Notes under the pieces: generated by a model
The model's database searches: none
The model's input: only the letters and a program-made list of their open reading frames with translations
What the model was told of the DNA's origin: nothing
Assembly (NCBI RefSeq): GCF_020616155.1
Contig: NZ_CP085530.1
Coordinates: 2,850,501 to 2,914,500 of the forward strand
DNA length: 64,000 bases
Reading direction: 5' to 3'
From: Vogesella sp. XCS3
GTDB taxonomy: Bacteria > Pseudomonadota > Gammaproteobacteria > Burkholderiales > Chromobacteriaceae
In this document: positions 4,253 through 57,436 of the stretch, piece after piece
Position numbering within the stretch: position 1 is the first letter of the stretch
How the letters are laid out: each line of letters begins with the position of its first letter
Made by a program: the position numbers and the translations under genes

Positions 4253-5452
4253 TCAGGCCTGCCAGCCGTCCGGCACGCGGCCAAAGCGCAATTGCGGCGT
4301 GCAGTGCCAGTCGGCGCACTGCTGTAGCGCTTTCAGGATGTCCTGCTGCAGGCGCTTGCCCGGCTTGATGCCGGGCTCCAGGTACAGCGCTTTCACCTCG
4401 AACACGCCCTGCGCGCGGTGCGCCTTGGCGTCCAGCCGCCCCACCAGTTGGCCGCGTACCAACAGCGGCAGCACAAAGTAGCCGTACTGGCGCTTGGGCG
4501 CCGGGGTATAGCACTCGATGCGGTAGTCAAAGCCGAACAGCTGGCTGGCGCGCGCGCGGTGCCACACCACCGGGTCGAACGGCGACAGCACGGTGCAGGC
4601 GCTGGCTTTCAGCTGGCCGTCTGCGGCCAACCTTAATGTGTCTTGCAGGCTGTGGTGCACGTAGCTGTCGCCTTTCAGACCTGCTACCTGTACCGGCAGC
4701 AGTTCGCCGCTGTCGACCAGCGGCGCCAGCTCGGCGGCGCTGACCTTGCCGCGCAGACGGAAGTAGTCGCCCACCCAGCCGGCTTGCACCAGGCCCAGCG
4801 CACGGCAGCTGGCGCGGATCATGTCGTGGCGGGCGCTGGCTGGCGTGGGCAGGTGCTGCGCGTCGTCCCAATGCGGCAGCACGCGCTCGGCCAGGTCGTA
4901 CACGCGCTGGAAGTTCTCGCGCTGGCGCACCATCAGTTGGCCGCTGGTGAACAGCACTTCCAGGTGGCGTTTTTCCGGCTTCCAGTCCCACCAGCCATTG
5001 CCCTTGCCGCCCTGGCGCGCAAAGTCGCGCGAGCGTACCGGGCCGTGCTGGCGGATGTGCGCCAGCAGCTGGTCGATGTCGGCGCGGTGTTTGTCCATCC
5101 AGCTGACCGAGTACTTCCAGCCCATGGCCGCCGGGTCCAGCATGCGGTGGCGCAGCAGGCGGTAGTCTTCTACCGGTACAAAGCAGGCCTCGTGCGCCCA
5201 GTACTCGAACAGCGCGCCGTCGGCCAGCAGGCTGTCCAGCCAGGCCGGGTCGTAGTGCCCCAGGCGGCTGTACAGCACCAGGTAGGGGCTGCGCGCCACT
5301 ACGCTGATGGTGTCGATCTGCAGCAGTGCCATGCGGCGGATGGCGGCCAGTACATCGTCGCGGCTGGCTTTGCGCCGTGGCGGGGTGAGCAGGCCCTGGG
5401 CGGCCAGGTGCAACGCGCGGGCGTCGGCAAGCGACAGGTGGGTGGTGGTCAT
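4253..5452 (-). CDS. ycaQ: Winged-helix DNA glycosylase, YcaQ/AlkX family
   Basis: 399 aa, close to E. coli YcaQ (410 aa). Begins MTTTHLSLADARALHLAAQGLL and shows LLQIDTISVVARSPYLVLYSRLGHYDPAWLD, then CFVPVEDYRLLRHRM. The family (HTH_42) uses tandem winged helices to open alkylated or cross-linked DNA. Residues 45-47, QID, form the Q-hydrophobic-D motif of the YcaQ/AlkX branch acting on interstrand crosslinks, as opposed to the QxQ motif of AlkZ. The start is the ATG at 5452; an in-frame extension to 5515 adds 21 residues (MTGSTGERLCCTHC...) with no family match. The last residues are VPDGWQA. Repair role is from family knowledge. Confidence 0.88.
   Translation of the reverse strand: MTTTHLSLADARALHLAAQGLLTPPRRKASRDDVLAAIRRMALLQIDTISVVARSPYLVLYSRLGHYDPAWLDSLLADGALFEYWAHEACFVPVEDYRLLRHRMLDPAAMGWKYSVSWMDKHRADIDQLLAHIRQHGPVRSRDFARQGGKGNGWWDWKPEKRHLEVLFTSGQLMVRQRENFQRVYDLAERVLPHWDDAQHLPTPASARHDMIRASCRALGLVQAGWVGDYFRLRGKVSAAELAPLVDSGELLPVQVAGLKGDSYVHHSLQDTLRLAADGQLKASACTVLSPFDPVVWHRARASQLFGFDYRIECYTPAPKRQYGYFVLPLLVRGQLVGRLDAKAHRAQGVFEVKALYLEPGIKPGKRLQQDILKALQQCADWHCTPQLRFGRVPDGWQA
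4623..4634 (+). repeat. Uptake-like 12-mer copy inside ycaQ
   Basis: Exact GCGGCCAACCTT within the coding region; one of eleven exact copies seen in the window. Confidence 0.75.
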
Positions 5453-5729
5453 GGCAATAAAATGACAGCGTGAACAGTGTGTACAGCATAGCCGTTCGCC
5501 AGTGCTGCCGGTCAACGGTAGAATGCTGTCGGCCTGTCACGACGGGCAGTTTCTTGTATGGCATTTTCATGCCATGGTGTACCGCCCGGCCAGTATTGGC
5601 AGGGCGTCTTGTTCTTTAAGTGCGCCAGCGCAGCGGCAGCCATTGCCGGGTGCGGCGCCACGTGGGCCCATGGCCTTTATACCAACCTGAACCGCGGCGG
5701 CGATCCCGCTACGGCAAGGAGCGATCTTT

Positions 5730-7595
5730 ATGTTGTTTTCCTGGTTTGAACGCCGGGTAGATGCCTACCCGGATACCCCCCCGCCACAACCCCCGAAAGG
5801 GTTTTTCCCGTTTGTCTGGTCGGCCACCGCCGGCATGCGCGGCCTGATTCTGGGCATGGCGCTGCTGACGGCCACCATCGGTGCGTTCGAGGCGCTGCTG
5901 TTTTCCATGCTGGGCTCGATTGTGGACTGGCTCAGCCACGTGCCACCAGCGCAGCTATGGGACAAGGAGCGCGACAACCTGCTGCTCTTGGCCGCCATCC
6001 TGCTGGCCAGCCCGCTGCTGATTGCGCTGCAGGCCATGGCCAAGTACCAGGGCCTGTTCGGTAATTTCCCTATGCGTTTGCGCTGGCATTTTCACCGCCA
6101 CCTGCTGAACCAGAGCATGGCCTTTTACCAGGACGAGTTTGCCGGCCGCGTGTCGGCCAAGGTGATGCAGACCGCACTGGCAGTGCGCGACACGGTGCTG
6201 ATCATTACCGACATCATGGTGTTTGTGGTGATCTACTTCATCACCATGGTGGCGGTGGTGGGCAGCTTCGACGCGGTGTTGCTGTGGCCCTTCCTGGCGT
6301 GGCTGGCGCTGTACGCGGTTACGCTGCGCTTCTTTGTGCCACGCCTCGGCCGTGCCGCCAGCCAGCAGGCCGACGCGCGCAGCCTGATGACCGGCCGCAT
6401 TACCGACGCCTACACCAATATCGCCACCGTCAAACTGTTCTCGCAGGGTAACCACGAGGCGCGTTTTGCCAAGGGCGCGATGCAGGAGTTCATGCAGACC
6501 GCCTACCGCCAGATGCGCTTGGTCAGCGGTTTCGAGATTGTTAACCACATTCTCAGCATGGGCCTGATTGCCAGCACCGCCGGCGCCACGCTGTGGCTGT
6601 GGAGCCGCGGCGAGGTGGGCGTGGGCGCAGTGGCGGCGGCTACGGCCATGGCGCTGCGCCTGAACGGTGTGTCGCACTGGATCATGTGGGAGATGTCCAG
6701 CCTGTTCGAGAACATCGGCACGGTGCAGGACGGCATTACCACGCTGTCGCGCCCGATTGCCATCCACGACGCGCCGGACGCCCGGCCGCTACAGGTTGGC
6801 CGCGGCGAGCTGCGTTTCGACAACGTGCGCTTCAGCTACGGCGGCGAAAAAGTGGTGATCGATGGCCTCAACCTCACCATCCGCCCCGGCGAGAAAATCG
6901 GCCTGGTTGGCCGCAGCGGCGCCGGCAAGTCCACCATCGTCAACCTGCTGCTGCGCTTTTACGAGCTGGAAAGCGGCCGCATCCTGATCGACGGCCAGGA
7001 CATCCGCCAGGTCACGCAGGACAGCCTGCGCGCGCAGGTGGGCATGGTGACGCAGGACACCTCGCTGCTGCACCGCTCGGTGCGCGACAACCTGTGTTAC
7101 GGCCGTATGCAGGCCAGCGACGAGGAAATGATCGCCGCCGCGCAAAAGGCCGAGGCGCACGAGTTCATCCTGCAGCTGACCGACCCCAAGGGCCGTACCG
7201 GCTACGACGCCCACGTGGGCGAGCGCGGCGTGAAGCTATCCGGCGGCCAGCGCCAGCGCGTGGCCATCGCCCGCGTGATGCTGAAGGACGCGCCCATCCT
7301 GCTGCTGGACGAAGCCACCAGCGCGCTGGATTCTGAGGTAGAAGCGGCCATCCAGAGCAGCCTGTACCGGCTGATGGAAGGCAAAACCGTGGTGGCCATC
7401 GCGCACCGCTTGTCCACCATCGCCGCCATGGACCGGCTGATCGTGCTGGACAAGGGCCGGGTGGTGGAAGAGGGCAGCCACGAGCAACTGCTGGCCAAGG
7501 GCGGCTTGTACGCCCGGCTGTGGGCGCACCAGAGCGGCGGTTTCCTCGGTGAGGAGATCGACCCGGAAGAAGAAGCCGCGCTGGCTGCCGGCTAA
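5730..7595 (+). CDS. ABC exporter, fused permease and ATPase
   Basis: 621 aa. Residues about 25-330 form a six-helix type-1 exporter domain with the long intracellular loops of this class (TGRITDAYTNIATVKLFSQGNHEARF). The ATPase half has Walker A GRSGAGKST, Q-loop, signature LSGGQRQRVAIARV, Walker B ILLLDEATSA and switch AHRLSTI. It should act as a homodimer exporting lipids, drugs or peptides; the substrate is not evident and no processing peptidase domain is present. A good ribosome site (AAGGAG) precedes the ATG. It is monocistronic, ends in TAAGG that forms part of an uptake-like 12-mer, and is followed by a strong terminator. Multidrug exporters and MsbA-like flippases are the alternatives. 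Confidence 0.9.
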   Translation: MLFSWFERRVDAYPDTPPPQPPKGFFPFVWSATAGMRGLILGMALLTATIGAFEALLFSMLGSIVDWLSHVPPAQLWDKERDNLLLLAAILLASPLLIALQAMAKYQGLFGNFPMRLRWHFHRHLLNQSMAFYQDEFAGRVSAKVMQTALAVRDTVLIITDIMVFVVIYFITMVAVVGSFDAVLLWPFLAWLALYAVTLRFFVPRLGRAASQQADARSLMTGRITDAYTNIATVKLFSQGNHEARFAKGAMQEFMQTAYRQMRLVSGFEIVNHILSMGLIASTAGATLWLWSRGEVGVGAVAAATAMALRLNGVSHWIMWEMSSLFENIGTVQDGITTLSRPIAIHDAPDARPLQVGRGELRFDNVRFSYGGEKVVIDGLNLTIRPGEKIGLVGRSGAGKSTIVNLLLRFYELESGRILIDGQDIRQVTQDSLRAQVGMVTQDTSLLHRSVRDNLCYGRMQASDEEMIAAAQKAEAHEFILQLTDPKGRTGYDAHVGERGVKLSGGQRQRVAIARVMLKDAPILLLDEATSALDSEVEAAIQSSLYRLMEGKTVVAIAHRLSTIAAMDRLIVLDKGRVVEEGSHEQLLAKGGLYARLWAHQSGGFLGEEIDPEEEAALAAG

Positions 7596-7605
7596 GGTTG
7601 GCCGC
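7594..7605 (-). repeat. Uptake-like 12-mer copy
   Basis: Exact AAGGTTGGCCGC; its first two bases are also the last two of the ABC exporter stop codon. Confidence 0.75.
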
Positions 7606-7617
7606 AGGCTGACAAAA

Positions 7618-7913: not shown

Positions 7914-9737
7914 ATGACCCTGCAAGCCCCGAGCTTTGTTCGCCACCAGAAACTGATCGACTGGGTAGCCGAAGTGGCCGCCCTCACCAAACCGGCTGCC
8001 ATCCACTGGGTAGACGGCTCCGAAGCGGAAAACCAGCAGCTGCTGGCCAAGATGGTGGCCGCCGGCACCCTTACCGCGCTGAACCCGGAAAAACGCCCCA
8101 ACTCCTACGCCGCCTTCTCCGACCCGTCCGATGTGGCCCGCGTGGAAGACCGCACCTTTGTGTGCAGCGCCCGCCGCGAAGACGCCGGCCCTAACAATAA
8201 CTGGATGGACCCGGCCCAGATGCGCAGCACGCTGCACGGCCTGTTCGACGGCTGCATGGCCGGCCGCACCCTGTACGTGATTCCGTTCAGCATGGGCCCG
8301 CTGGGCTCGCCGATTGCGCATGTGGGCATCGAGCTGACCGACTCGCCGTACGTGGTGGCCTCGATGCGCATCATGACCCGCATGGGCCGTAACGTGTACG
8401 AAGTGCTGGGTGAAGACGGCCCGTTCGTGCCCTGCGTGCACTCGGTGGGCGCACCGTTGGCCGCAGGCGAGGCCGACAAGCCGTGGCCGTGCAACCCGGA
8501 CACCAAGTACATCGTGCATTACCCGGAAACCCGCGAAATCTGGTCGTACGGCTCCGGCTACGGCGGCAACGCGCTGCTGGGCAAGAAGTGCTTCGCGCTG
8601 CGCATTGCCTCCACCATGGGCCGCGACCAGGGCTGGCTGGCCGAACACATGCTGATCCTGGGCGTGGAAAGCCCGCAAGGCGACAAGCGCTACGTGGCCG
8701 CCGCCTTCCCTAGCGCCTGTGGCAAGACCAACTTCGCCATGCTGATTCCGCCGAAAACCTACGACGGCTGGAAAGTCACCACCGTGGGCGACGACATTGC
8801 CTGGATCAAGCCGGCGGCGGATGGCCAGCTGTACGCCATCAACCCGGAAAACGGCTATTTCGGCGTGGCACCGGGTACCTCGGTGAAGTCCAACCCCAAC
8901 GCTATGGCGATGCTGAACGAAGGCGTGATCTTTACCAACGTGGCGCTGACCGACGACGGCGACGTGTGGTGGGAAGGCATGAGCAAGGACATCCCGGCGC
9001 ACCTGACCGACTGGCAGGGCAAGGACTGGACGCCGGAAATCGCCAAGGAAACCGGCCGCAAGGCCGCGCACCCGAACGCGCGCTTTACCGTACCAGCCGC
9101 CAAGTGCCCGTCGCTGGACCCGGCCTGGAACGACCCGGCCGGCGTGCCGATCTCGGCCTTCATCTTTGGTGGTCGCCGCTCGTCCACCGTGCCGCTGGTG
9201 TTTGAAGCCGCCAGCTGGGAAGACGGCGTGTACATGGCCGCCACTATGGGCTCGGAAACCACCGCTGCCGCGTTTGGCGCGCAGGGCGTTACCCGCCGCG
9301 ACCCGTTTGCCATGCTGCCGTTCTGCGGCTACCACATGGGCGACTACTTCCAGCACTGGCTGGATATGGCGGGCAAAGTCAGCAAACTGCCGCGCATCTT
9401 CTGCGTGAACTGGTTCCGCACCGACGCCGACGGCAAGTTCATCTGGCCAGGCTTTGGCGACAATATGCGCGTGCTGGAATGGATAGTTGGCCGCGTGCAG
9501 GGCACTGCCCAGGCCGAAGATAGCCCGCTGGGCAAGGTGCCGGCTTACGCGCACCTGAACTGGACTGGCCTGGACGGCTTTACCGAGCAGCACTTCCAGC
9601 AGCTGATGGTGCTGGACGAAGCCGCCTGGCGCCACGAGCTGGCCGCCCACGACGAGTGGTTTGCCAAACTGGCCGACGCGCTGCCGGCCAGCCTGGCCGC
9701 CCGCCGCAGCACACTGGCGGCAGCACTGGGCGTGTAA
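7914..9737 (+). CDS. pckG: Phosphoenolpyruvate carboxykinase (GTP)
   Basis: 607 aa, standard for GTP-dependent PEPCK (EC 4.1.1.32), which converts oxaloacetate and GTP to PEP, CO2 and GDP at the start of gluconeogenesis. Seen: the substrate region [16 protein letters not shown], the kinase-1 P-loop [13 protein letters not shown] containing the reactive Cys, the metal-binding [13 protein letters not shown], and the guanine-binding end [16 protein letters not shown]. The start is the ATG at 7914, preceded by GAGGTAG; the open frame continues 75 codons further upstream, but those residues do not resemble the family. Monocistronic with its own terminator. A GTAGT-N6-ACTAC palindrome and a stem-loop lie upstream and may regulate it together with gap. 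Confidence 0.97.
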
Positions 9738-9784: not shown

Positions 9785-9790
9785 CATGCT

Positions 9791-9802
9791 GCGGCCAACC
9801 TT
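9791..9802 (+). repeat. Uptake-like 12-mer copy
   Basis: Exact GCGGCCAACCTT between the convergent pckG and qorA genes. Confidence 0.75.
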
Positions 9803-12848: not shown

Positions 12849-13439
12849 TTAAATGCCGGCTTGGCGCTGCGCCAGCTTGCCTGCTACGCCTAGCAGGCCA
12901 GGTAGGCATTGCGGCCAACCTTGCAGGCGATGATCATCGCCATTCAACACCGTGGTGCGGGCGCCGGCGTAGTGCCGTACCGCCTCGCGCCAGTCCAGTA
13001 CCTCGTCTGCCGTGCCCAGTACCAGCCAGTAGTTGGCCGCATGCAGCCGGGCCGGGCGTAGGGCAATCAGCTCGTCCATATGTTGCGGCCCCAGCGTGTA
13101 GTGTTCGCCGGTGTAGGGGTTGTGCAGCGGGCCCATGAAGCGTGCCAGGTCGGCTTCCGGGCGAATGGCCGGGTTGATCAGTACGGCGGGCAGGCCGAAG
13201 CGTTCGGCCAGGCAGGTAGCGTAATAGCCGCCCAGCGAGCTGCCTATCAGCACCAGTGGTTGCTTGATGCTATCGATCAGGGCCTCGACTTGCGCGATGG
13301 CCTGCGCCGGGTAGGGCGACAGCTGCGGGCTGCTGAAGCTGGCCTCGGGGGCGATGGCGTGCAGGTAAGCTTGCGTTTCGCGTGCCTTGAGCGATTGCGG
13401 GCCAGACTGGAAGCCGTGCAGGTACAGGTAATGGGTCAT
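12849..13439 (-). CDS. yqiA: YqiA-family alpha/beta-hydrolase esterase
   Basis: 196 aa from the ATG at 13439 (MTHYLYLHGFQSGPQSLKARE), matching the UPF0227/YqiA esterase family (about 190 aa). The LHGF oxyanion region, the nucleophile elbow LIGSSLGGYYA (Ser of GSSLGG) and the late ENGDDH-like segment LNGDDHRLQGW with the catalytic His are visible. E. coli YqiA has acyl-CoA/ester hydrolase activity in vitro; the natural substrate is unknown. Eleven extra codons upstream to 13472 are possible but do not match the family. The gene carries an exact uptake-like 12-mer near its 3' end. Convergent with hnoK. Confidence 0.88.
   Translation of the reverse strand: MTHYLYLHGFQSGPQSLKARETQAYLHAIAPEASFSSPQLSPYPAQAIAQVEALIDSIKQPLVLIGSSLGGYYATCLAERFGLPAVLINPAIRPEADLARFMGPLHNPYTGEHYTLGPQHMDELIALRPARLHAANYWLVLGTADEVLDWREAVRHYAGARTTVLNGDDHRLQGWPQCLPGLLGVAGKLAQRQAGI
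12911..12922 (+). repeat. Uptake-like 12-mer copy inside yqiA
   Basis: Exact GCGGCCAACCTT within the coding region. Confidence 0.75.
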
Positions 13440-13502: not shown

Positions 13503-14258
13503 CTAGCTGGTTTTCCAGCTGTAGTTTTGCAGGATGCGTCTGGTTTTACCCTGTTTTTCCAGCAGGCTGATTGCCTGGTTCAGCTGCGCTACCGAATAGT
13601 GGCTGAGCGGGGCAACAGCGCAGCGTGTCTGCAGCACCGACACCACCCAGGGCTGCATGCGTAACTGCTGGCCTGGCTGCGGGTTGCGCTTTACCCATGC
13701 GGCCAACTCCAGCTCCGAGCTGATAACGGCATCGATCATCCCCAACTGTAATGCCTTCAGGCCAGAGTCCAGATGCGGGTGGTCTACCCGGATGCCGCCG
13801 CTGTTTTGCCATAGCGGTATCAGCGCCGGGTAGTGGTAGCCGCGTATCACGCCCACCCGTTGCGCGGCCAGGTCCTGGCTGCCATGTACGGTACGCAGGT
13901 GGCTGGCGAGGGTCACCACCCGCTCGATCTGGGGGTAGAAGTCCTGCGTCCAGCCAAGCTTGGCGGCGTTGCTGAACCAGGCCGGGTTGGCATTGCACAC
14001 CACATCTACCTTGCTTTGCTCCAGCGCCGGTTCGATACGGTTGCGTGACAGCACGCTGAAGCGGGCACTACTACCCAGTGCCTGGGCCAGTGCCAGGCCC
14101 AGGTCTTTTGACAGGCCGCTTTCCAGCTGGCGCTGTGCATCCAGCACGACAATGGGGGCAGCGTCTGACTCCGCTACGCCAATGTGCAGGGGCGGGGCGG
14201 CCTGGGCTGTGCTGGCAGCCAGCAGTAGCCAGCCCGGGCGGCAGAAAGGCGTAGACAT
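13503..14258 (-). CDS. Periplasmic solute-binding protein, family 3 type
   Basis: 251 aa beginning MSTPFCRPGWLLLAASTAQAAP, a signal peptide; the start at 14258 is chosen because AAGGGAG lies seven bases upstream, although in-frame ATGs exist at 14276 and 14318. The mature part follows the bacterial extracellular solute-binding protein family 3 fold: LHIGVAESDAAPIVVLD, SGLSKDLGLALAQALG, VDVVCNANPAW, VGVIRGYHYPALIPLW, LGMIDAVISSELELA. Such proteins bind amino acids or related small molecules, but no permease or ATPase genes are adjacent, so it may be an orphan binding protein or sensor. A second protein of this class lies at 46071. Confidence 0.8.
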   Translation of the reverse strand: MSTPFCRPGWLLLAASTAQAAPPLHIGVAESDAAPIVVLDAQRQLESGLSKDLGLALAQALGSSARFSVLSRNRIEPALEQSKVDVVCNANPAWFSNAAKLGWTQDFYPQIERVVTLASHLRTVHGSQDLAAQRVGVIRGYHYPALIPLWQNSGGIRVDHPHLDSGLKALQLGMIDAVISSELELAAWVKRNPQPGQQLRMQPWVVSVLQTRCAVAPLSHYSVAQLNQAISLLEKQGKTRRILQNYSWKTS

Positions 14259-14382: not shown

Positions 14383-18111
<3,729 letters not shown>

Positions 18112-18116
18112 AACGT

Positions 18117-18134
18117 GCGGCCAACGTTGGCCGC
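18117..18134. repeat. Inverted pair of the uptake-like core after metH
   Basis: GCGGCCAAC and GTTGGCCGC meet head to head to make an 18-bp perfect palindrome six bases after the metH stop. Paired, inverted uptake sequences at gene ends are a hallmark of Neisseria DUS. Confidence 0.7.
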
Positions 18135-34131: not shown

Positions 34132-34342
34132 AGACAAGCTGGCCCGAAACAGATTAAGACGAGTATAACCGAAAATACTTTTGTATCAAAATAAAATACA
34201 AATGCAATAAGCGGTTACAAAGCGCTATGGCCGCCAGAAAACGCAAAATGCTTGTACACTGCGGGCGGTATTTTTGGCATAAATCACCTGTTACGCGACA
34301 GCGGCAGCCTATTTTGGCTTTGTTTATCGAAAGCCGCGTGAA

Positions 34343-38425: not shown

Positions 38426-38433
38426 TTATTGTT

Positions 38434-38445
38434 GCGGCCAACCTT
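38434..38445 (+). repeat. Uptake-like 12-mer copy
   Basis: Exact GCGGCCAACCTT directly after the inverted-repeat element and eight bases from the SDR stop codon. Confidence 0.75.
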
Positions 38446-39276: not shown

Positions 39277-40116
39277 ATGGATACGCGTCAGCTCAAGGCT
39301 TTTATCGCCGTGTTCGAAGAGCGCAACATCACCCGCGCCGCTGCGCGGCTGCACCTGACCCAGCCTACGCTGTCGGTGACCATCCGCCAGTTGGAGGACG
39401 AGCTGGGTACGCCGCTATTCGGGCGCGAGGCGCGCGGGGTGATCGTAAGCGACGCCGCGCGCCGGCTATACCCGCAGGCGCAGCAGTTGCTGGCGCAAAT
39501 GACGCAGCTGAAGGCGCAGTTTGCCGCGCCGCAGGGCTGTTTGCCGCTAGCGTTGGGGGTAGAGGCCGACCTGGGGGCGGCGCAGCGTGTAGCCTTGCTG
39601 GCGCATTGCCGTCAGGCGCTGCCGCAGCTGCTGTTGCAGGTGTTGCCCGGCTGTAGCGGCGAGCTGCGGCTGGCCAGCGAAGAGCTGCGCTGCGAGGACG
39701 AGCTGTTCCTGCCCTTGTGGGAAGAGACCTTCGTGCTGGCTTTGCCGCAGGCCGCTGCCGAGGCGGGTGGCATTACCCGCTTGCAGGCGATGGCGCTGGA
39801 CTGGGTGGTGTGCCCGTCGCATCCGTCGCACCAGCGTCTGCTGGCGTGGCTGGATGGGGGCGGCACGGCGCTGGCCAGCGCGCATCAGGCCGGGAGCCTG
39901 GCGCTGGCACGCGATATGGTACAGGCCGGGCTGGGCGTGGCCTTGCTGCCGCCTGGCCTGTTGTTGCCGGGCATGGGCTGGCAGCCGCTGCAGGGGGCGG
40001 CGCCGTCGCGCCGCGTGGGGCTGTGTTATGCGGCCAACGTGGCCAGCCAGCCGGCAGTGGCAGCCTTGCTGCACAGCCTGCAGGGTTGGCCGCAGGCGGC
40101 GGGCAGGGTGGTTTAG
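39277..40116 (+). CDS. LysR-family transcriptional regulator
   Basis: 279 aa from ATG 39277. N-terminal winged helix MDTRQLKAFIAVFEERNITRAAARLHLTQPTLSVTIRQLEDELGTPLFGREARGVIVSDAARRLYPQA is unmistakable; the rest is a shortened LysR substrate domain (LPLALGVEADLGAAQRVALLAHCR, EETFVLALPQAAA, GLGVALLPPGLLLPG). It is somewhat shorter than the usual 295-310 aa. Divergent from the SDR gene, which it probably regulates; the inducer is unknown. Its stop overlaps the convergent hemerythrin gene by 4 bp. Confidence 0.9.
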   Translation: MDTRQLKAFIAVFEERNITRAAARLHLTQPTLSVTIRQLEDELGTPLFGREARGVIVSDAARRLYPQAQQLLAQMTQLKAQFAAPQGCLPLALGVEADLGAAQRVALLAHCRQALPQLLLQVLPGCSGELRLASEELRCEDELFLPLWEETFVLALPQAAAEAGGITRLQAMALDWVVCPSHPSHQRLLAWLDGGGTALASAHQAGSLALARDMVQAGLGVALLPPGLLLPGMGWQPLQGAAPSRRVGLCYAANVASQPAVAALLHSLQGWPQAAGRVV

Positions 40117-40799: not shown

Positions 40800-41834
40800 A
40801 TGCCTGTGCCGTTTTGCGTATCCCCCCTGCCGCACGATGCGGCCAACCTGGCCGCTGCACTGGCGCTGCACGACGCTGCCCACGCGCTGGAAGTAGGCTG
40901 GCTGGACGGCTACCGGCTGCCACGGCTGTGGCGCAGCGCAGACGACATCAAGACCAGCCCCTTGCAGATTCTGGCGGCGTGGGACGAGGTCGGTACCCTG
41001 TGCGGTTTGCTGACCCTGGGGCGCTACAAGGATGGCCGCGCCGAAATTGCCCGCACGCTGGTGCACCCGCAAAGGCTGGGCGAGGGCTGGGCCGGCCGCC
41101 TGCTAAGCTTCGCGCTACAGCACGAACAGGGCGCCACAGTCATGACGGCTGCGGCCAACCGTGCGGCGGTGCGCTGTTACCAGAAGGCCGGCTTTGTAGA
41201 AAGCAAACGCTTTGCCGCGCCGGACGGCCTGCCGCTGCTGCGCCTGTCGTGGGCGAGGGACGACAGCCCGCTGCCGCTGAGCCTGGGCGACGACGGCTGG
41301 GTGAGCGAGGCGCAGCGCATCCCGTCGCCCAACTGCGACGACTACCCGGCGCCGGCCGCTACGCCCTTGCTGGTGGTGCACAATATCAGCCTGCCACCGT
41401 ACCGTTACGGCGGCAGCGGCGTGGCCGAGCTGTTTACCAATACGCTGGACCCCGCCGCGCACCCGTTTTACGCCGAGATTGCGCACTTGCGCGTGTCCTG
41501 CCACTTTTTCATCCGCCGCGACGGCAGCCTGTTGCAGTTTGTGCCGGTGCACCGCCGCGCCTGGCACGCCGGTGCCTCGCAGTGGCAGGGGCGCGAGCGC
41601 TGTAATGACTTTGCCCTGGGGGTGGAGCTGGAAGGCTGCGATTTCGAGCCCTTCGCCCCCGCCCAGTACCGTACCCTCACCGCGCTGGCGCAGCTGCTGC
41701 AGCAGCGTTGCGGCGTGCAGGCCATTAGCGGCCACGAGCACATCGCGCCAGGGCGCAAGACCGACCCCGGGCCGTATTTCGACTGGCTGCGGCTATCTGC
41801 CGCGCTGGGCCGCAGCCTGCCAGACCCGGCCTGA
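40800..41834 (+). CDS. GNAT acetyltransferase-AmpD amidase fusion
   Basis: 344 aa from ATG 40800, with GGAG six bases upstream. Residues 1-155 look like a GNAT acetyltransferase (LWRSADDIKTSPLQILAAWDEVGTLCGLLTLGRY, ARTLVHPQRLGEGWAGRLLSFAL, ANRAAVRCYQKAGFVE). Residues about 166-344 are a complete AmpD (1,6-anhydro-N-acetylmuramoyl-L-alanine amidase): RIPSPNCDDYP, zinc ligands His194 (LVVHNISLPP), His312 (SGHEHIAPGRKTDPGP) and Asp322, with Lys320. The frame is continuous, but a GTG at residue 167 could start AmpD separately. It should cleave stem peptide from anhydro-muropeptides during recycling; the acetyltransferase substrate is unknown. Confidence 0.85.
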   Translation: MPVPFCVSPLPHDAANLAAALALHDAAHALEVGWLDGYRLPRLWRSADDIKTSPLQILAAWDEVGTLCGLLTLGRYKDGRAEIARTLVHPQRLGEGWAGRLLSFALQHEQGATVMTAAANRAAVRCYQKAGFVESKRFAAPDGLPLLRLSWARDDSPLPLSLGDDGWVSEAQRIPSPNCDDYPAPAATPLLVVHNISLPPYRYGGSGVAELFTNTLDPAAHPFYAEIAHLRVSCHFFIRRDGSLLQFVPVHRRAWHAGASQWQGRERCNDFALGVELEGCDFEPFAPAQYRTLTALAQLLQQRCGVQAISGHEHIAPGRKTDPGPYFDWLRLSAALGRSLPDPA

Positions 41835-42824: not shown

Positions 42825-42891
42825 CAATAATCGGGTTGCCGTGCCTGCGGCCAACCCGCATGCTGGCGCCTCGTCTACACAGGGGTTTGCC

Positions 42892-43782: not shown

Positions 43783-43810
43783 AAAAAGGTTGGCCGCGGC
43801 CAACCTTTTT
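43781..43810. terminator. Bidirectional terminator built from two inverted uptake-like 12-mers
   Basis: AAGGTTGGCCGC (43786-43797) and GCGGCCAACCTT (43796-43807) form a perfect 22-bp palindrome flanked by A and T runs, between the convergent EamA permease and kup genes. This is how inverted DUS pairs act as terminators in Neisseria. Confidence 0.88.
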
Positions 43811-43828: not shown

Positions 43829-45694
43829 TTACAGCTCGACCTGGGCGCCCATCTCCACCACGCGGTTGGACGGAATCTGGAAGAAGTCGGTGGCGCGCAG
43901 CGCGTTGCGGCTCATCCACACGAACAGCTTTTCACGCCACGGTGCCAGGCCGTCGCGGTCGGTCTGGATCAGCGTCTCGCGCGACAGGAAGAACGAGGTG
44001 TCCATCAGCTCGAACTGCATGCCCTGTGTTTCGCACAGGTCCAGCACCTCTTGCACGCTAGGCGTTTCCTTGAAGCCGTAGTAGGCCATCACGCGCCAGA
44101 AGCTATTGGACAGGCGTTCGATCTCGATACGCTTTTCTGTTTCGATATAAGGCACTTCCTCGCTGCGTATCGTCATCAGCACGATGCGCTCGTGCAGCAC
44201 CTTGTTGTGCTTCAGGTTGTGCAGCAGCGCGTGCGGTACGCCGTGGGTGGAGTTGGTCAGGAACACGGCGGTGCCCTGTACGCGGTCAGGCGAGTACGAT
44301 TCCATGTTCTCGATAAAACCATCCAGCGGGATGGCCATCTCGTTCAGGCGGCTCATCAGCAGCTTGCGGCCCTGGCGCCAGGTGCTCATCAGGATGAAGG
44401 CGATGACACCGATCAGCAGCGGCAGCCAGCCACCGGCAAAAATCTTCACCACGTTGGCCGCAAACAGCGGGATATCCACGCACAGCAGGGCTACCAGCAG
44501 CGGTGCCACCACCCATACCGGCCATTTCCACTGTTTCAGCGCCACGGTGCAGGCCAGGATGGAGGTAATCACCATGGTGCCGGTCACGGCAATACCGTAG
44601 GCGCCGGCCAGCGCGCTGGAGGTCTGGAACATCACCACCACGGCAATCACGGCAAACAGCAGGCCCCAGTTCACCAGCGGAATGTAAATCTGGCCGATTT
44701 CCTTGTCCGAGGTGTGGGTGATCTCCATGCGCGGCAAGAAGCCCAGCTGTACTGCCTGGCGGGTCAGCGAGAACACGCCGGAAATCACGGCTTGCGACGC
44801 AATGACCGTGGCAGCGGTAGACAGGATCACCATGGGCAGCAATGCCCACTGCGGCGCCAGGTGGAAGAAAGGGTTGGCGCGCGCGGCCGGGTCGGCCAGG
44901 ATTTCGGCACCCTGGCCGAAGTAGTTCAGCATCAGCGCGGGCAGCACATAAAAGAACCACGCCAGGCGGATGGGTTTGGGGCCGAAATGGCCCATGTCGG
45001 CGTATAGCGCCTCGGCACCGGTTAGCGCCAGCACCACCGAGCCCAGCGCCAGAAAGCCTACCGCCTGGTGTTCCAGCATGAAGGCGATGCCCCAGGCCGG
45101 GTTCAGCGCGGACAACACCGCCGGGTTACCCAGGATGCCATGCACGCCCAGCGCAGCCAGGGCAGCAAACCACAGCATCATCACCGGGCCAAACAGCTTG
45201 CCCACGCTGGCGGTACCGTGTTTCTGGATGACAAACAGCCCCACCAGCACCGCAATGGCGATAGGCAGTACGTAAGGCTTGAAGCTGGGGGTAATCACCT
45301 CCAGGCCTTCCAGCGCCGACAGCACCGATACCGCCGGGGTAATCACCACTTCGCCATAGAAAAAGCCGCCGCCCATCAGGCCCAGGGCAGCCAGCAGCCA
45401 GCCTTTGCTGCCGATCGCGCGCCGTGCCAGCGCCATCAGGGTAAGGATGCCGCCTTCGCCACGGTTATCGGCACGCAGCACGAAGGCCAGGTATTTGAGC
45501 GAGACCACCAGAATCAGCCCCCACACGATCAGGGACAGGATGCCCAGCACGTTGGCTTCGTTTGGCAGCAGCCCCAGGTGCGGGCTGAAACACTCTTTCA
45601 GGGTATAGAGCGGGCTGGTGCCGATGTCGCCATAGACCACGCCCAGGGCGGCCAGGGTAATGCCCGCCATTGCTTGTTTGTTATGCGCTTGCAT
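43829..45694 (-). CDS. kup: Low-affinity potassium uptake protein Kup
   Basis: 621 aa, matching Kup/TrkD (622 aa in E. coli). N-terminal [28 protein letters not shown], then [91 protein letters not shown], and the cytosolic C-terminal domain (about 460-621). Twelve helices. It imports K+ with protons. The start is ATG 45694; a 75-codon upstream extension is not family-like. It ends at the shared bidirectional terminator. Confidence 0.95.
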
Positions 45695-46070
45695 GATGCT
45701 TTGTATTGTTGTTTGAGGGTTTTGCACAGCTGTTTTGCTGCATTGCAAAAGTAAGGCACAGGTGAGCGCGCAGATTACTCCGCTGGCGGCCAAAAGACCA
45801 TGCGGCCAACCCGGCCTGTGCTGCTTTATGCGTATCGTGTAGATGCTTTGCCACAATTGTGCGCAGGTGTGGCTTTTGTGTCGGCCACGGCAAGGCAGGC
45901 GTGACATTTGTCGCGGCAAATCGAATATTTCGATAAATTAACTTGCATATATGCCGGCATTTTTTTAGCGTCATCTTAATGAATGGCTATGGGCAGTAAG
46001 GTACTGGCCAGATTGACACAAACCCTGTGCGCTAGCGAGTGCCGCGATGAATCGTCATGAAAGGGCTGTA
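45695..46070. other. kup upstream region
   Basis: 376 bp without a gene. It contains an uptake-like core GCGGCCAAC near 45801, the palindrome TCGAATATTTCGA at 45921-45933 and an AT-rich stretch. I see no riboswitch or clear RNA gene. Confidence 0.5.
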
Positions 46071-46772: not shown

Positions 46773-47688
46773 TGCCGGCGTGGCTGCCCAGTGGCAAAAA
46801 GGCGGCACCGCGTACACCGCCCGCGTCGCCATGGCGGGCTTTTTCTATGCGCGGTACACGGGCGAATTTCAGCATATAGCGCGGCAGGCGTTTGGGCAGC
46901 TCGCGGTACAGCTCGTCAAAATTGGATAAGCCGCCGCCCAGTACGATCAGCTCCGGGTCCAGTATGGCCAGGTAGCCGGCAAAGCAGCAGGCGGTCAGCT
47001 CGAAGAATTGCTCGACAAACACCACGGTAGACGGGTGGCCTTCGCGGTAGCGCTGGATGATGTCCTGAGCGGCGAGCCTTTCGCTAAAACGGTGGAAGAA
47101 CAGCTGCTCGAAGCCGCGGCCGGACAGGTAGTTATCGATGCAGCCACGTTGGCCGCAGCCGCAGGCAAATACCGGCAAGTCGCCGCCAAACGCCTGCAGG
47201 GCATCGATAGGCAGGCGCATATGGCCCAGCTCGCCTGCCACGTGGTTCAGGCCGTTGTGGATCTGGCCGCGGAAAATCATGCCGGACCCTACGCCGGTAC
47301 CCAGAATGATGCCCAGTACCGAAGCCACGCCATGGTTGGCCGCGTCCATGGCCTCGGAGAGCGCAAAGCAGTTGGCGTCGTTATCAATATGGACCGCCCG
47401 GCCCAGGCGCTCTTGCAGGTCTTCCCGCAGGCGGCGGCCATTGGCTGCCGGCACGTTGGCCGCCAGCAGGCTGCCGCTGATGCTGTCGATAATGCCGGGA
47501 ATACCCAGGCCGACGCTGCCCTGGCTGCCCAGTGCGCTATCGGCTTGCTGTACGGTATGGCACAGCTCGTCCAGCAGGCTGGCGTAATCTTTGGGGGTGG
47601 CAAAGCGGTGCTGGCGTACGCGCCGTAGCGAGGCGTCGAATGCGCCGAACTCTATCTTGGTACCGCCGATGTCAAATCCATAAAGCAT
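46762..47688 (-). CDS. nagK: N-acetylglucosamine kinase (ROK family)
   Basis: 308 aa, close to E. coli NagK (303 aa, EC 2.7.1.59). MLYGFDIGGTKIEFGAFDASLRRVRQHRFATPKDYASLLD (ATP loop DIGGTK), HIDNDANCFALSEA with the catalytic Asp, GTGVGSGMIFRGQIHNGLNHVAGELGHM, and the zinc motif CGCGQRGCIDNYLSGRGFE. It phosphorylates free GlcNAc in the cytosol to GlcNAc-6-P. It lies downstream of the porin and sugar ABC operon, from which it is separated by a terminator at 47751, and complements NagZ in that operon. In-frame ATG at 47778 is less likely. Confidence 0.92.
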   Translation of the reverse strand: MLYGFDIGGTKIEFGAFDASLRRVRQHRFATPKDYASLLDELCHTVQQADSALGSQGSVGLGIPGIIDSISGSLLAANVPAANGRRLREDLQERLGRAVHIDNDANCFALSEAMDAANHGVASVLGIILGTGVGSGMIFRGQIHNGLNHVAGELGHMRLPIDALQAFGGDLPVFACGCGQRGCIDNYLSGRGFEQLFFHRFSERLAAQDIIQRYREGHPSTVVFVEQFFELTACCFAGYLAILDPELIVLGGGLSNFDELYRELPKRLPRYMLKFARVPRIEKARHGDAGGVRGAAFLPLGSHAGTTA

Positions 47689-50119: not shown

Positions 50120-51604
50120 TCAGGCCAGGCGGGCCGGCATGCGGCCGGTGGCGTCCAGCGTGCCCTGCAGCCAGTCGCTGACGGCGTGCAGTGCTGCATC
50201 GGCAAAGCCGTAGGTCAGCAGGGCGGGGGCGTTCAGGTCGGCGGCGGCGTAGGGGTTCCACAGCGCCAGGTGCAGGTCGGGCTGCCAGCTGGCGGCCTCG
50301 CGCGCGCCGTAGCGTTCGCGGGTGGTGGAGGCCAGCACGGTGTAGCGGCCATCCTGCGGCAGCGTGGCCCAGTCCAGCGCCTGGCGGCTGGCAAAGGTCA
50401 CCACGTCCAGCTCGAAGTGCTGGCGCAGCACGCTAATCAGGGTGTCGGCCGACAGGCCGGCTTCGGATACGCCGTCGGACGGCGCCTGCTGCTGCAAGAC
50501 CAGGCGCAGCTGGCGCGAGGTTGGCCGCAGCGGCTGGCCGTGGGCGGTGAGGGCGCGGCGCCAGGCGCTGGCAAACAGCGCCACGTCGGCGGCTTCCTGT
50601 GCCGGGCTGTAGTCGCGGGTGCGGCTGGGGTGACGGGCCACCAGGGCGTTGACGCGCTGCTCGGCCTCGGCCAGGCGCTCGCTGCTCAGGCTGCCGTCGT
50701 GGACGGCGTGTTCCAGCGCCTGGCGGCTGGCGACCATTTCATCGACAAACTGCAGCACCAGCGACAGGTCGGCGCCAGCGCGCAGCGCTTGTGCCGTACC
50801 GGCGGCCTGGCCCCAGCGTTCGCGGATGGCTTTCATGTTCATGCCGTCGGTAATGGCCACGCCCTGGTAGCCCCATTGCTGGCGCAGCAGGGTGCCGAGG
50901 ATGGCCGGCGACAGTGTGGCCGGCCACGCTTCGTCCAGCTGCGGGAACAGGATGTGCGCGCTCATCAGCGAGGCGCTGTGTGGCAGCAGGGCGCGGAACG
51001 GCGCCAGCTCGTAGTCGTCCAGCGCGGCGCGGCTCTTGTCTACCACCGGCAGGTCCAGGTGCGAGTCGGTATGGGTATCGCCGTGGCCGGGGAAGTGCTT
51101 CACACAGCAGGCAATGTTTTCCTGCTGGTGGCCGCGCATCCAGGCGGCGGCCAACCTTACGGCGCTTTCCGGGTGCTCGCCAAAGCTGCGCTCGCCGATT
51201 ACCGGGTTTTGCGGGTTGTTGTTCAGATCCAGTACCGGGCCGTAGTTCAGGTTGATGCCCAGCGAGGCCAGGCCACGCGCCAGCGCGGCGCCTACGTCGT
51301 GCGCCAGCTGCTCGTCGCCCACCGCGCCCAGCGCCATGGCCGACGGTGCTTGCGGCAGGAACAGCGTGCGCATCACGGCGCCGCCTTCCTGGTCGATGCC
51401 GATCAGCACGTCGTCGCCGCAGGCTTCGCGCAGCTGGGCAACCAGCGCACGGGTCTGGGCTGCGTCCTGCACGTTGCGGCGGAACAGGCAGATGGCGCGG
51501 ATATGGTTATCACGCAGGAAAGTCTTTTCTGTGTCGGTCAGGGCGGTGCCGGCGACATCTACCATCAGGGCACGGCCGGCCAGGCGGCTCAGGTCTTGGC
51601 TCAT
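50120..51604 (-). CDS. nagZ: GH3 beta-N-acetylhexosaminidase, NagZ type, two-domain
   Basis: 494 aa, no signal peptide. The GH3 barrel (about 1-340) has IGIDQEGGAVMR, NLNYGPVLDLNNNPQNPVIGERSFGE, the NagZ motif KHFPGHGDTHTDSHLDLP with the catalytic Asp180-His182 pair, and the nucleophile Asp253 in AITDGMNMKAI. A second domain of about 150 residues follows, absent from the 341-aa E. coli NagZ but known in longer Gram-positive-like forms. It should split GlcNAc from GlcNAc-anhydroMurNAc or chitobiose in the cytosol. It overlaps the upstream permease gene by 4 bp and sits inside the ABC operon, so imported disaccharides are its likely substrates. Confidence 0.93.
   Translation of the reverse strand: MSQDLSRLAGRALMVDVAGTALTDTEKTFLRDNHIRAICLFRRNVQDAAQTRALVAQLREACGDDVLIGIDQEGGAVMRTLFLPQAPSAMALGAVGDEQLAHDVGAALARGLASLGINLNYGPVLDLNNNPQNPVIGERSFGEHPESAVRLAAAWMRGHQQENIACCVKHFPGHGDTHTDSHLDLPVVDKSRAALDDYELAPFRALLPHSASLMSAHILFPQLDEAWPATLSPAILGTLLRQQWGYQGVAITDGMNMKAIRERWGQAAGTAQALRAGADLSLVLQFVDEMVASRQALEHAVHDGSLSSERLAEAEQRVNALVARHPSRTRDYSPAQEAADVALFASAWRRALTAHGQPLRPTSRQLRLVLQQQAPSDGVSEAGLSADTLISVLRQHFELDVVTFASRQALDWATLPQDGRYTVLASTTRERYGAREAASWQPDLHLALWNPYAAADLNAPALLTYGFADAALHAVSDWLQGTLDATGRMPARLA
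51147..51158 (+). repeat. Uptake-like 12-mer copy inside nagZ
   Basis: Exact GCGGCCAACCTT within the coding region. Confidence 0.75.
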
Positions 51605-52475: not shown

Positions 52476-53345
52476 TCATTTCTTGCGCGGTTGCAGGTAG
52501 CGGAAGTTCAGCCAGGCCAGCGCCACGCAGAACACGGACATCACCAGGCTGGCAGCCAGCGCACGGCCAAAGTTCAGCGACTTGATACCGAACTCGTAGG
52601 CGTAGAACAGCGCGGTATAGGTAGACTGCATCGGGCCGCCCTTGGTCATGATCTGCACTTCTTCAAAGCACTTCACTGCGGCCAACATGGACATCACCGA
52701 GCACAGCAGGATGGTGGGCATCAGCAGCGGCACGGTGATCTTCCAGAAGCGCTGCCAGGCGTTGGCACCGTCCAGCACCGCTGCTTCGTACACGTCTTGC
52801 GGCACGCTTTGCAGGCCGGCCAGGTACAGCACCATGTACCAGCCCAGGCCGCGCCAGATGGTGACGAACATCACGGCAAACAGCGCGATGCGGTCGTCGC
52901 TGAGCCAGCCGATAGGCTCGTTGATCACGTGCAGCCAGCGCAGCACCGAGTTCAGCGCGCCGTCGTCGGTGTACATGAAGTTCCAGATCACGCCGATCAC
53001 CGACACCGTGGTGACTACCGGCAGGTAGTAGGCCGCGCGGTAAAACTTGATGCCGGGCAGCTGGTTGTTCACCAGCACCGCCAGCAGAATGGCCAGCACC
53101 TGGATGGCAGGCACCACCAGCAGGTACAGCGCCGAGTTTTTCAGCGAGCTGATGAACAGCTCGTCGGCGAACAGCTCGCGAAAGTTATCCAGACCGACCC
53201 ACACCGGGGCGTCGATCAGGTTGTATTGCGTAAACGCCAGGTAGGAACCGAACCCTACCGGCCAGAAAGAAAACGCCAGTAACAGCAGCAGCGCCGGGGC
53301 GAGAAACAGCCAGGCCTGCAGTGTGTTTTTCTTGGAAGCACTCAT
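52476..53345 (-). CDS. Sugar ABC transporter permease, MalF type
   Basis: 289 aa, six helices. MSASKKNTLQAWLFLAPALLLLLAFSFWPVGFGSYLAFTQYNLIDAPVWVGLDNFRELF is the usual N-terminus of MalF/UgpA permeases, and the EAA loop reads SVPQDVYEAAVLDGANAWQRFWKITVPLLMPTILL. Forms the transmembrane pore with the MalG-type partner. A 20-codon upstream extension is not family-like. A stable hairpin separates it from the binding-protein gene. Confidence 0.92.
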   Translation of the reverse strand: MSASKKNTLQAWLFLAPALLLLLAFSFWPVGFGSYLAFTQYNLIDAPVWVGLDNFRELFADELFISSLKNSALYLLVVPAIQVLAILLAVLVNNQLPGIKFYRAAYYLPVVTTVSVIGVIWNFMYTDDGALNSVLRWLHVINEPIGWLSDDRIALFAVMFVTIWRGLGWYMVLYLAGLQSVPQDVYEAAVLDGANAWQRFWKITVPLLMPTILLCSVMSMLAAVKCFEEVQIMTKGGPMQSTYTALFYAYEFGIKSLNFGRALAASLVMSVFCVALAWLNFRYLQPRKK

Positions 53346-53446
53346 ACTCACCGCACTTTGCAAACTTGATCCAATACCCGTTGGCCGCAGGCAAAGCCTG
53401 GCCACCCCTGCCAGCGCCAGGGGCGCAGGCAGGGCGGGGGCGTGGT

Positions 53447-55323: not shown

Positions 55324-57390
55324 ATGACCGATACCGCTATTGATTTGCCCCATTTGCTGACCGACGCCCCCGCTAGGACAGACTTGCTAGGCTTTAAGCC
55401 GCACGCTGAAAGGTTGGCCGCATTAATCCAGAAACAGATTCCGGACAAAGCCAGTTTTGTCATCGGTATTGAAGGCGAATGGGGCGAGGGCAAGTCCAGC
55501 TTCATTAACCTGCTGAAAGACGCGTTTCCTGCGGAGAAGACAGATGAGACGCGGCCAACCATTGTTGACTTCAACCCGTGGTGGTTTGAAGGCTCCGACC
55601 AGCTACTGCGGCACTTCTTCGATGAGTTATTGGGGCAGATCGACTGGACACGTGGTGACGGAGAGAAGCTGTTTGACAGCGTCAGCAAGCTGGCTGCCTT
55701 TGCCGGGCGGGTTGGCAAGCTGATGCAGCTGGCACCCGAGCCGATGTTGCAAACAGCGGGCAAAGTCGCCGAGGGGGTAGGGCAGGCTTTCGGTGGTGGT
55801 AGCAAGCCGGAGTCGTTCCGCAAGCTGCGAGATGCTGCCGCTGAGACGCTGGCCGTGCTCAGTTTCAAAACCATCGTCTTCATCGATGACCTCGATCGCC
55901 TGCCGGCGCGCGAGATTGTCGAGCTGTTCCGCGTCATCAAGGCGGTAGCCGACCTGCCCAATATCGTCTACGTCATCGCCTACGACCGCGCCATCGTGGC
56001 GTCGGCGCTGGATGAGGTACATAAGGGCAGGGGCGAGGCGTATCTGGAGAAAATCGTACAGCTGCCGTATCGTTTGCCGAAGCCGACTCTTAAAAAGTGG
56101 CATACCTATAATTTTGATACGCTCATTACGACCTTGCGTTTGCTACACGGTACGCCGAGTGACCAAGAAGCACAGGATTCTTTCCGAGTGATTTGCAGCG
56201 CCTTCCTGCAGTTGCCTCGCGACGCCAAACGTTTGCTGTCCAGCGTGCATGTTTATCAACTGATACCCGAGCAGATACGGATTGACCCGGTGGACTTTCT
56301 GTTTCTGGAAGCAATGCGGCTGAAAGACCGCCGCCTTTGGGAGCAATTGCTGTCAGCCATTTTGTCCATACGTGAGTTGATGCTGATGTCCACCGGTGGC
56401 AAGAATGATGATGCGCGTTTTACCAGTTGGCTGCAGGGCTATATGCCTGCGTTAGAAACTGCCAAGCCTGCAGTGAAAGACGCGATACAGCATTTTACTG
56501 GCTGGCCGGTCGGAAAGAATAAAGGCCTGAAAGAGCGAATGGTGACACCACAACGCCTGTCACGCCTTGTCAGCCGGGTGCAGATCCATCTGGGCTACCG
56601 TTCTTGGGACGAAGAGATCGATGTGCTGCTGAATATGATGAGGGCCTATAGGCAAGTGAAACCATCAGAGAACCAGTTCTCGAATGAGGCCATCGAACAG
56701 TTCTTACAGGCTGATACATTGCCAGAGTTGGCCGCAGCTTTGCCAAGCCAGGGGATGAAACCGACTTTCTTTTACGAAGTCATTGGCTTTCTGCAGCATC
56801 GCCTTAACCTTGCGTTTGACCCACTACAACATGCCACTTTGGTTGCTGAACTCCTGGAAGATGGGCCATTGGAAGAAACTGCTTTGCTGGGCTACCTACA
56901 GGATTTTTTGGCTTGTGTTTTCCTTGGTGAGATCAGATCCACCTTTGCAGAGCTGAATGACGAGGCCAAAGCAATGGTGACGGATTGGCTGGTCGGTAAT
57001 ACGGCAAAGAAAATGGCTTTGTTGATAGGCTTTAGTCAGCCAGGTGATTGGGATAACTTCAAAGCGTTAGCAGTGGAAAAATGTCTACAGATGAGTTTAA
57101 TGGAGCTGCTGACCATCCCTAACCCGATGGTGACGGCGCAGGTACTGGACGTAATTGGTCGGGGCGAGCCCAGTAAAGTTGAGGTATGGGAGGCTGCTTT
57201 GCCAGAAGTATTGCCAGATGCTGCTGTACCTCGTTTGTCTTTATTGTTTACCAGCAATGGCAAAATGGTAATGACCAACAGTGCTTGGCTGTACAAATCC
57301 AAGCGCTTTGTGAATTTGGTTCGGCAGCTACCCACTAGCAGTCTGAGAGCCCCTGACTGGGACGCTTTCCTGCAAAAAGCCACCGTCTAA
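55324..57390 (+). CDS. KAP-family P-loop NTPase
   Basis: 688 aa. The Walker A motif GEWGEGKSS (51-59) in [24 protein letters not shown], the KAP-typical [10 protein letters not shown] (81-90), and Walker [12 protein letters not shown] (183-192) followed by [13 protein letters not shown] define the family (named for Kidins220 and plasmid PifA). An amphipathic insert (about 115-160) sits where other members have membrane helices. The C-terminal 350 residues are helical with no recognised domain. Some KAP proteins act in phage exclusion or defence, but no partner gene is adjacent. Base composition is more AT-rich than its neighbours, hinting at acquisition, yet it carries several uptake-like words. 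Confidence 0.85.
55410..55421 (-). repeat. Uptake-like 12-mer copy inside the KAP gene
   Basis: Exact AAGGTTGGCCGC within the coding region. Confidence 0.75.
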
Positions 57391-57424
57391 ACTGCACCAA
57401 GGGGCGGTCGCTGGCCGGCCCGTT

Positions 57425-57436
57425 GCGGCCAACCTT
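57425..57436 (+). repeat. Uptake-like 12-mer copy
   Basis: Exact GCGGCCAACCTT between the KAP gene and proS. Confidence 0.75.

Follow-up and report, generated by a model that had tools for sequence, protein, structure and literature searches.

The word in the window and in the genome

The stretch analyzed here, 64,000 nucleotides of Vogesella sp. XCS3 (NZ_CP085530.1, positions 2,850,501 to 2,914,500; hereafter the window), carries among other genes a methionine synthase, a BCCT transporter, and a KAP-family NTPase, and scattered through it is a short word that a first-pass annotation, made from the letters alone, had taken for a DNA uptake sequence (DUS), the type of self tag with which related bacteria select free DNA for uptake. 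Eleven exact copies of its 12-mer GCGGCCAACCTT had been reported, and all of them were recovered (4623, 7594, 9791, 12911, 34120, 38434, 43786, 43796, 51147, 55410, and 57425), compared with a mean of 0.05 and a maximum of 1 in 100 shuffles. The nine-base core GCGGCCAAC had been estimated at 50 to 60 copies in similar numbers on both strands; the balance held (32 on the plus and 34 on the minus strand), while the count had to be raised to 66 (shuffle mean 2.33, maximum 7). In an order-3 Markov ranking of the window, the word and its register shifts top the lists of 8- to 12-mers. The natural unit proved to be other than GCGGCCAACCTT: among 10-mers GTTGGCCGCA comes out best, with 44 exact copies in the window and none of its reversed control, and among 12-mers AGGTTGGCCGCA, with 13. 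Read on the strand opposite to that of the first-pass annotation, the natural unit is AG-GTTGGCCGCA, that is, a 10-mer preceded by two semi-conserved 5′ bases.

The full 12-mer unit AG-GTTGGCCGCA lies at 21725..21736 and 50518..50529 on the plus strand and at 1571..1582, 27655..27666, and 40838..40849 on the minus strand. Full units that contain GCGGCCAACCTT occupy 7594..7606, 34120..34132, and 55410..55422 on the plus strand, with GCGGCCAACCTT at the first of these positions in each case, and 4622..4634, 9790..9802, 12910..12922, 38433..38445, and 57424..57436 on the minus strand, with GCGGCCAACCTT at the second; the unit at 7594..7606 overlaps the stop codon of an open reading frame (ORF) at 5730-7595. 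The minus-strand GCGGCCAACCTT copy at 51147..51158 has the 9-mer core, not the exact 10-mer. The 10-mer GTTGGCCGCA was found on the plus strand at 6906..6915, 8456..8465, 13032..13041, 23564..23573, 24808..24817, 28315..28324, 29524..29533, 31942..31951, 32424..32433, 33648..33657, 37128..37137, 44453..44462 (a site whose core is altered in V. aquatica), 47148..47157, 53380..53389, 56727..56736, and 59854..59863, and on the minus strand at 1709..1718, 13698..13707, 17538..17547 (within the methionine synthase ORF, 14383-18111), 22877..22886, 24088..24097, 31222..31231, 31417..31426, 41150..41159, 42846..42855, 45801..45810, 52677..52686, and 60470..60479. Inverted pairs of the word are seen 5 bp past the methionine synthase stop (18116..18134), within called genes at 40029..40094 (10-mers at 40029 on the minus and 40085 on the plus strand) and 59248..59314 (9-mer cores at 59248 and 59306), and at 43786..43807, where the two copies overlap (AAGGTTGGCCGCGGCCAACCTT) and are preceded by an A-run and followed by a T-run, giving a terminator-like hairpin that is readable from both sides.

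Over the whole genome (3.89 Mb, two contigs), GCGGCCAACCTT occurs 262 times in forward and 286 times in reverse orientation (548 copies), and the reversed-word control occurs in neither. K-mers of the genome were then ranked in a sample of 20 stretches over the chromosome, 400 kb in all. In this sample, GTTGGCCGCA is present 278 times versus 6.8 expected from an order-4 model and AGGTTGGCCGCA 112 times versus 0.54, each at rank 1, and the word comes first at k = 9, 10, and 12. A frequency near the Markov expectation had been named as a finding that would speak against an uptake role; the observed frequency is far above it. A logo of 552 TTGGCCG sites yielded G before the motif in 78% of the sites and C (80%) and A (56%) after it, with A (45%) and G (50%) as the 5′ bases. 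Since positions outside the unit hold at most 0.13 bits each, a longer repeat family was rejected as the source of the word. Codon or amino acid bias was likewise rejected as its cause, because all six reading frames are used, sense and antisense copies within genes are similar in number (113 and 101), and the density is higher between genes; two of the six frames dominate, translating as x-LAA and x-AAN. Searches of the window with Rfam (gathering threshold) and ARAGORN gave no matches. We estimate about two thousand copies of the short word per Vogesella chromosome.

Placement on the chromosome and on the second contig

The even spacing anticipated by the first-pass annotation was borne out, since the number of copies per 20 kb is near Poisson (mean 13.9, variance 14.0), and the strong replication-strand bias that it had listed as a counterindication was not seen (G-rich 175, C-rich 147; p = 0.13). 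To place the copies relative to genes, we used a simple caller of our own, which yielded 337 genes in 464 kb; at 0.73 genes per kb it misses some, and the intergenic share of 105 among 322 10-mers is thus an upper bound. The density is 1.2 per kb between genes versus 0.58 in genes. Intergenic copies were assigned to convergent gaps (40), tandem gaps (44), and divergent gaps (6), a distribution that departs from gap length (chi-square p 2e-6), and 15 of the 105, lacking a called gene on one side, fall in no gap class. The word had been described as lying in genes and especially just after stop codons; in agreement with this, 67 of the 84 copies in tandem and convergent gaps are within 60 bp past a stop. 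All 34 pairs of neighboring 9-mers at most 60 bp apart are inverted and none is direct, and 27 of the 34 are not wholly within one called gene, a figure that describes placement relative to called genes and not to mapped transcript ends.

The second contig (164 kb), presumably a plasmid, differs from the chromosome in GC content (0.52 versus 0.62) and has 4 copies of the word in 160 kb versus 111 expected. At about 55,300-56,000 of this contig (locus L212 from about 15341, about 600 bases), a 37-bp unit that includes a perfect hairpin (GTGTGCTATTAGCACAC) is repeated head to tail sixteen times, which may represent an array of iterons or a partition array belonging to this replicon.

Conservation of word positions among Vogesella species

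The BCCT transporter of the window shares 99% identity with that of V. aquatica, 97% with that of strain L13, and 86% with that of V. urethralis. As had been expected of an uptake word, positions are kept between close species: an alignment with V. aquatica that covers 42.6 kb at 94.5% identity retains 40 of 41 words, and in the reverse direction 40 of 44 V. aquatica words are shared, four being present in the relative only. Control 9-mers of equal GC are kept at 70%, and the words are better preserved in both directions (p 8e-6 and 9e-4). At one 8-kb locus, words are kept in 9/9 cases in V. aquatica, 9/9 in L13, 7/7 in a metagenome-assembled genome, 4/6 in V. urethralis, and 0/5 in V. margarita, with control 9-mers at 67, 67, 50, 33, and 28%, respectively. 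The word density of V. margarita is still high genome-wide (2044). These data indicated that word positions turn over while density stays.

Sister words in related genera

Relatives were represented by 61 genomes of the same family (f1 in the grouping of the tool used, genera g1 to g10, with Vogesella as g1) and by 24 order-level genomes. GCGGCCAACCTT is dense in all 13 genomes of the genus (485-1050 copies) and occurs 0-9 times in the other 48 of the 61. Sister words fill genomes of six genera besides Vogesella: GTTGGCCGAA in g2 (1104, 893, and 183 copies), g3 (2168 and 579), g5 (1245), g10 (1851), and a single g6 genome, G017 (1368), and GTTGGCCGAG in g4 (1590 and 1940). Carriers thus amount to 23 of the 61 genomes (g1 13/13, g2 3/3, g3 2/2, g4 2/2, g5 1/1, g10 1/1, and g6 1/10), called by 10-mer counts for the first genome set and by GTTGGCCG versus its reverse alone for 24 added genomes, and the noncarrier genera are g7 (0/19), g8 (0/6), and g9 (0/4). 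The weakest carriers are G029, with 183 copies in a genome that is 84% complete, and G023, with 579; a 20-kb sample of the latter held one copy of the word, which is compatible with low density. By an identical ComP, G024 is Crenobacter cavernae, G015 is C. luteus, and G023 is Crenobacter sp. SG2303, and the G001 ComP contains the Vogesella sp. LIG4 protein letter for letter. NCBI places Vogesella in the Chromobacteriaceae, Neisseriales, and Crenobacter in the Neisseriaceae, yet the tool groups the two together. The largest genus, g7, is probably Chromobacterium and g6 probably Aquitalea.

Six genomes of Chitinibacter, Chitinilyticum, and Deefgea have 12-26 copies of the Vogesella 10-mer, and in the 24 order-level genomes the three words (the GTTGGCCGCA type and the sister words) were at background only. 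No other dense word was seen in samples of the word-free genomes G035 (140 kb), G030 (120 kb), G032 (60 kb), and G051 (60 kb); G027, G028, G020, G019, and G040 were also ranked by sample. The samples of G035 and G028 also yielded a weak word, GCTGACCGAG; we rejected it as a possible lost dialect, as it occurs 17-178 times versus 4-49 for its reverse in 37 family genomes with no genus specificity. Separately, GTTGGCCG was 1.4- to 2.4-fold over its reverse in all 19 g7 genomes (e.g., G035) and about twofold in two g8 genomes (G027 and G036), in which no dense word was seen; such an excess is possibly what decaying words leave. A sample of G021 (L103/L104) further showed a run of ACACCAACA-type repeats, about 18-20 copies in 40 kb, that is unrelated to the uptake word and perhaps represents one repetitive gene.

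A candidate receptor, the ComP-like minor pilin

The first-pass annotation had proposed a search for a ComP-type minor pilin, and one is encoded in this genome (G000) outside the window, at about 3106142-3106555 of contig C1. Its best sequence match and the best Foldseek matches of its predicted structure are Neisseria ComP (PDB 5HZ7, 2M3K, and 2NBA), and it is a prepilin whose ComP globular domain is nearer to the solved ComPs than to other pilins. Stretches of the LLxxAxFxExxY and W-P-x-L-P types are common to the Vogesella and Neisseria proteins. The comP frame is without an internal stop in 13 of 13 Vogesella genomes, and open frames with ComEC and DprA domains are also present. In each of the 23 carriers, the ComP profile finds a match of at least 126 bits. 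A ComP-like gene accompanies the word everywhere, and the converse fails.

ComP loci were then compared in an alignment (A1) of 26 of 30 loci; L160 represents the gene already included in A1 as L153, L185 belongs to another family, and the loops of L166, L167, and L181 were read apart from A1. Two cysteine columns are invariant in its 26 rows. Among the 34 of 61 family genomes viewed, 22 of 23 carriers and 0 of 11 word-free genomes have an N-x-D-x-[GD] loop following the first strand, an association that its Fisher p overstates, given that the motif was chosen post hoc from the alignment, kinship was uncontrolled, and the 11 word-free genomes come from three genera. The loop is present in G010 and G001 and absent in G021, the lone exception among carriers; g7 ComP has N-x-D without the Gly. 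Within g6, the word-rich G017 has the carrier-type loop, and the five other g6 genomes viewed are without it, which offers a natural contrast for the study of gain or loss. We regard the association of loop and word as a lead, not as proof.

Comparison with known uptake words

The published DUS layout is a 10-mer with a semi-conserved 5′ dinucleotide, and in the portion of PMC3630211 drawn on here, all dialects that Frye et al. describe have CTG at +6 to +8. We compared the Vogesella word with AT-DUS, AG-DUS, AG-mucDUS, AG-kingDUS, AG-simDUS, and AA-king3DUS (taken from parts of PMC3630211 and PMC10715097, with AG-DUS and AG-mucDUS composed from published descriptions, and with eikDUS and wadDUS left out). 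AGGTTGGCCGCA equals AG-simDUS and AG-mucDUS at 8 of 12 positions, and its sister AGGTTGGCCGAA does so at 9 of 12. In random words of like composition, such likeness has a chance of 0.02-0.03 for AGGTTGGCCGCA and 0.003-0.005 for AGGTTGGCCGAA in fixed register, rising to 0.06-0.07 and 0.007-0.012 once shifts of as much as 4 positions are permitted. The first-pass annotation was therefore right that the CTG core of the known dialects is absent, CCG being found instead, and wrong that they look nothing like this word. A at +10 is shared with the Neisseriaceae DUS by the Vogesella and GAA words, whereas the g4 word has G, and the Vogesella word differs from the Neisseriaceae DUS in its G at +5. Further features in common are the semi-conserved 5′ AG, around two thousand copies per genome or more, near-equal strands, inverted pairs after genes, one dialect per species group, and a ComP homologue. 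Because CTG at +6 to +8 was checked and is not there, we do not file the Vogesella word among the CTG dialects.

The host also differs: Vogesella, placed by NCBI in the Chromobacteriaceae, stands near genomes for which Frye et al. reported no obvious DUS, namely Laribacter, Lutiella, Pseudogulbenkiania, and two Chromobacterium genomes (PMC3630211, in part). In the same portion of that paper, C. violaceum is without ComP by BLAST and the DUS system is placed after that split. Dialects that may be new are also mentioned, for its own data set, in part of PMC11316581. Our literature search found no paper joining "DNA uptake sequence" and Vogesella, and only unrelated titles were among the matches listed for substrings of the Vogesella word. 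Two other words may be set beside it. The uptake signal sequences (USS) of Pasteurellaceae (AAGTGCGGT and ACAAGCGGT types) are likewise dense on both strands with many genic copies, and differ in sequence and clade. HIP1 of cyanobacteria, another hyper-abundant short word, is palindromic, and the Vogesella word is not.

The word as a probable DNA uptake sequence

The uptake interpretation of the first-pass annotation was supported by the checks made. In our view, the word probably represents a new, non-CTG class of DUS that works now or did so until recently, with a ComP orthologue as its reader. AG-GTTGGCCGCA would then serve as the DUS of Vogesella as a genus. The word would be bound in free DNA by a ComP-type minor pilin of the type IV pilus, whose retraction, together with ComEC-type transport, would carry the DNA inside; recombination of self DNA would maintain and spread the word, with inverted pairs after genes possibly doubling as hairpin terminators, as reported for Neisseriaceae. 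We infer that the Vogesella ComP reads this word and that the word raises uptake.

Several observations weigh against this interpretation. CTG, called an essential core in the part of PMC12061091 consulted, is replaced by CCG at +6 to +8 in the Vogesella and sister words. Vogesella ComP has two cysteines, one pair, versus four in Neisseria ComP, whose two disulfides the same part of that paper describes as crucial for DUS binding. At R78, K94, and K108, which are electropositive and reportedly important in N. meningitidis ComP (PMC12061091, in part), the Vogesella protein has Gly, Arg, and Glu in a numbering mapped by alignment spacing; R78 and K108 thus appear not to be kept, and K94 alone is matched by a basic residue. 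The DNA contacts of ComP may shift along with the word. In a second aligner, 5hz7 was separated from the other two ComPs by PilV, PilX, and a Shewanella pilin. Pfam ComP_DUS also matches two PilE-like pilins of the same genome, L147 and L152. Neither has its best structure match in ComP, and the Pfam model is thus not specific enough to identify a DUS receptor; both were rejected as the receptor, L147 being closest to P. aeruginosa PilE (4noa) and L152 having its best matches in the N-terminal helices of general pilins. Among the 38 word-free genomes, the ComP profile matches at 140 bits or more in 24, at 88-126 bits in 10, and at only 61-71 bits in 4 (g9); the 88-126-bit range is ambiguous, as second paralogues of g6 score 107-115, and one of the 10 has an in-frame TGA. 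The absence of all five words from fixed positions in V. margarita speaks against long-term site conservation. No whole-word match was found in the literature for GTTGGCCGAA, TTCGGCCAAC, TTGGCCGAA, or GTTGGCCGAG in a search that did not extend to Table S1D of PMC3630211, where a sister word may be listed without the label of DUS; according to the part of that paper drawn on here, the table gives over-represented 10-mers of Laribacter, Lutiella, Pseudogulbenkiania, and two Chromobacterium genomes.

The same placement data could be produced by a dispersed transcription terminator or mRNA-end element of the REP type with no role in uptake. This would account for enrichment just past stops and scarcity in divergent gaps, for the exclusively inverted close pairs that mostly are not wholly inside a called gene, and for the hairpin at 43786-43807 with its flanking A and T runs. 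Such an element is hard to reconcile with the 217 of 322 copies that are not intergenic (edge cases included), with a genic density far over the Markov expectation and a sense-to-antisense ratio of 113:101, or with the rarity of partners, since most copies have no second one at a distance of 60 bp or less (34 pairs for 446 cores). Single copies are not palindromes, and from genus to genus the sister words differ at one or two positions, in the manner of DUS dialects; we therefore consider a pure terminator improbable.

Chromosome maintenance (a Chi-like or KOPS-like signal) or a methylation or restriction target would fit the dense, near-even spread on the chromosome and the scarcity on the second contig. 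Chi and KOPS are strand-biased, and the bias of this word is not significant; moreover, the 10-mer is no palindrome, different genera have different forms of the word, and neither inverted pairs nor placement at stop codons would be expected, all of which makes such a signal very unlikely. We give as little weight to a relic DUS, in which the words persist after uptake or its specificity has been lost. Word-free genera do keep ComP-like genes, and hence word and receptor are separable; we also found no account of natural transformation in Vogesella, the papers that mention both having titles on other subjects. Against a relic stand the words' better survival than control 9-mers between close species (40/41, and 40/44 in reverse, versus 70%), the comP frames intact in 13 Vogesella genomes, and the ComEC and DprA domains in open frames.

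If the word is a DUS, common ancestry of the Vogesella system with that of the Neisseriaceae is likely in view of the modest likeness of the words and the shared ComP, and the ComP profile matches across the family favor an earlier origin followed by loss. We give about even chances to a scheme in which sequence-specific, ComP-dependent uptake predates the split between the classical DUS-bearing Neisseriaceae and the Vogesella-Chromobacterium group; the core would have changed between CTG and CCG with a compensating change in ComP, at least three dialects (GCA, GAA, and GAG ends) would have arisen in the latter group, the word would have been lost in the largest genera with the ComP-like gene often kept, and the N-x-D-x-[GD] loop would be part of the reading head. 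The family-wide argument for an old origin rests on the tool's grouping, because NCBI puts Crenobacter in Neisseriaceae. Since the portion of PMC3630211 cited above dates the DUS to after the Chromobacterium split, a CCG word with its own ComP in Vogesella and related genera would, if true, push this origin back or reveal a second one. Natural pairs of ComP and word that differ in the "fixed" core would also make the way ComP reads DNA testable by exchange of loops and words, and the word could aid the transformation of environmental Vogesella and the spotting of foreign DNA in such genomes.

Among the other genes of the window, we noted one for a KAP-family P-loop NTPase at 55324-57390; NTPases of this family are often met in phage defense.

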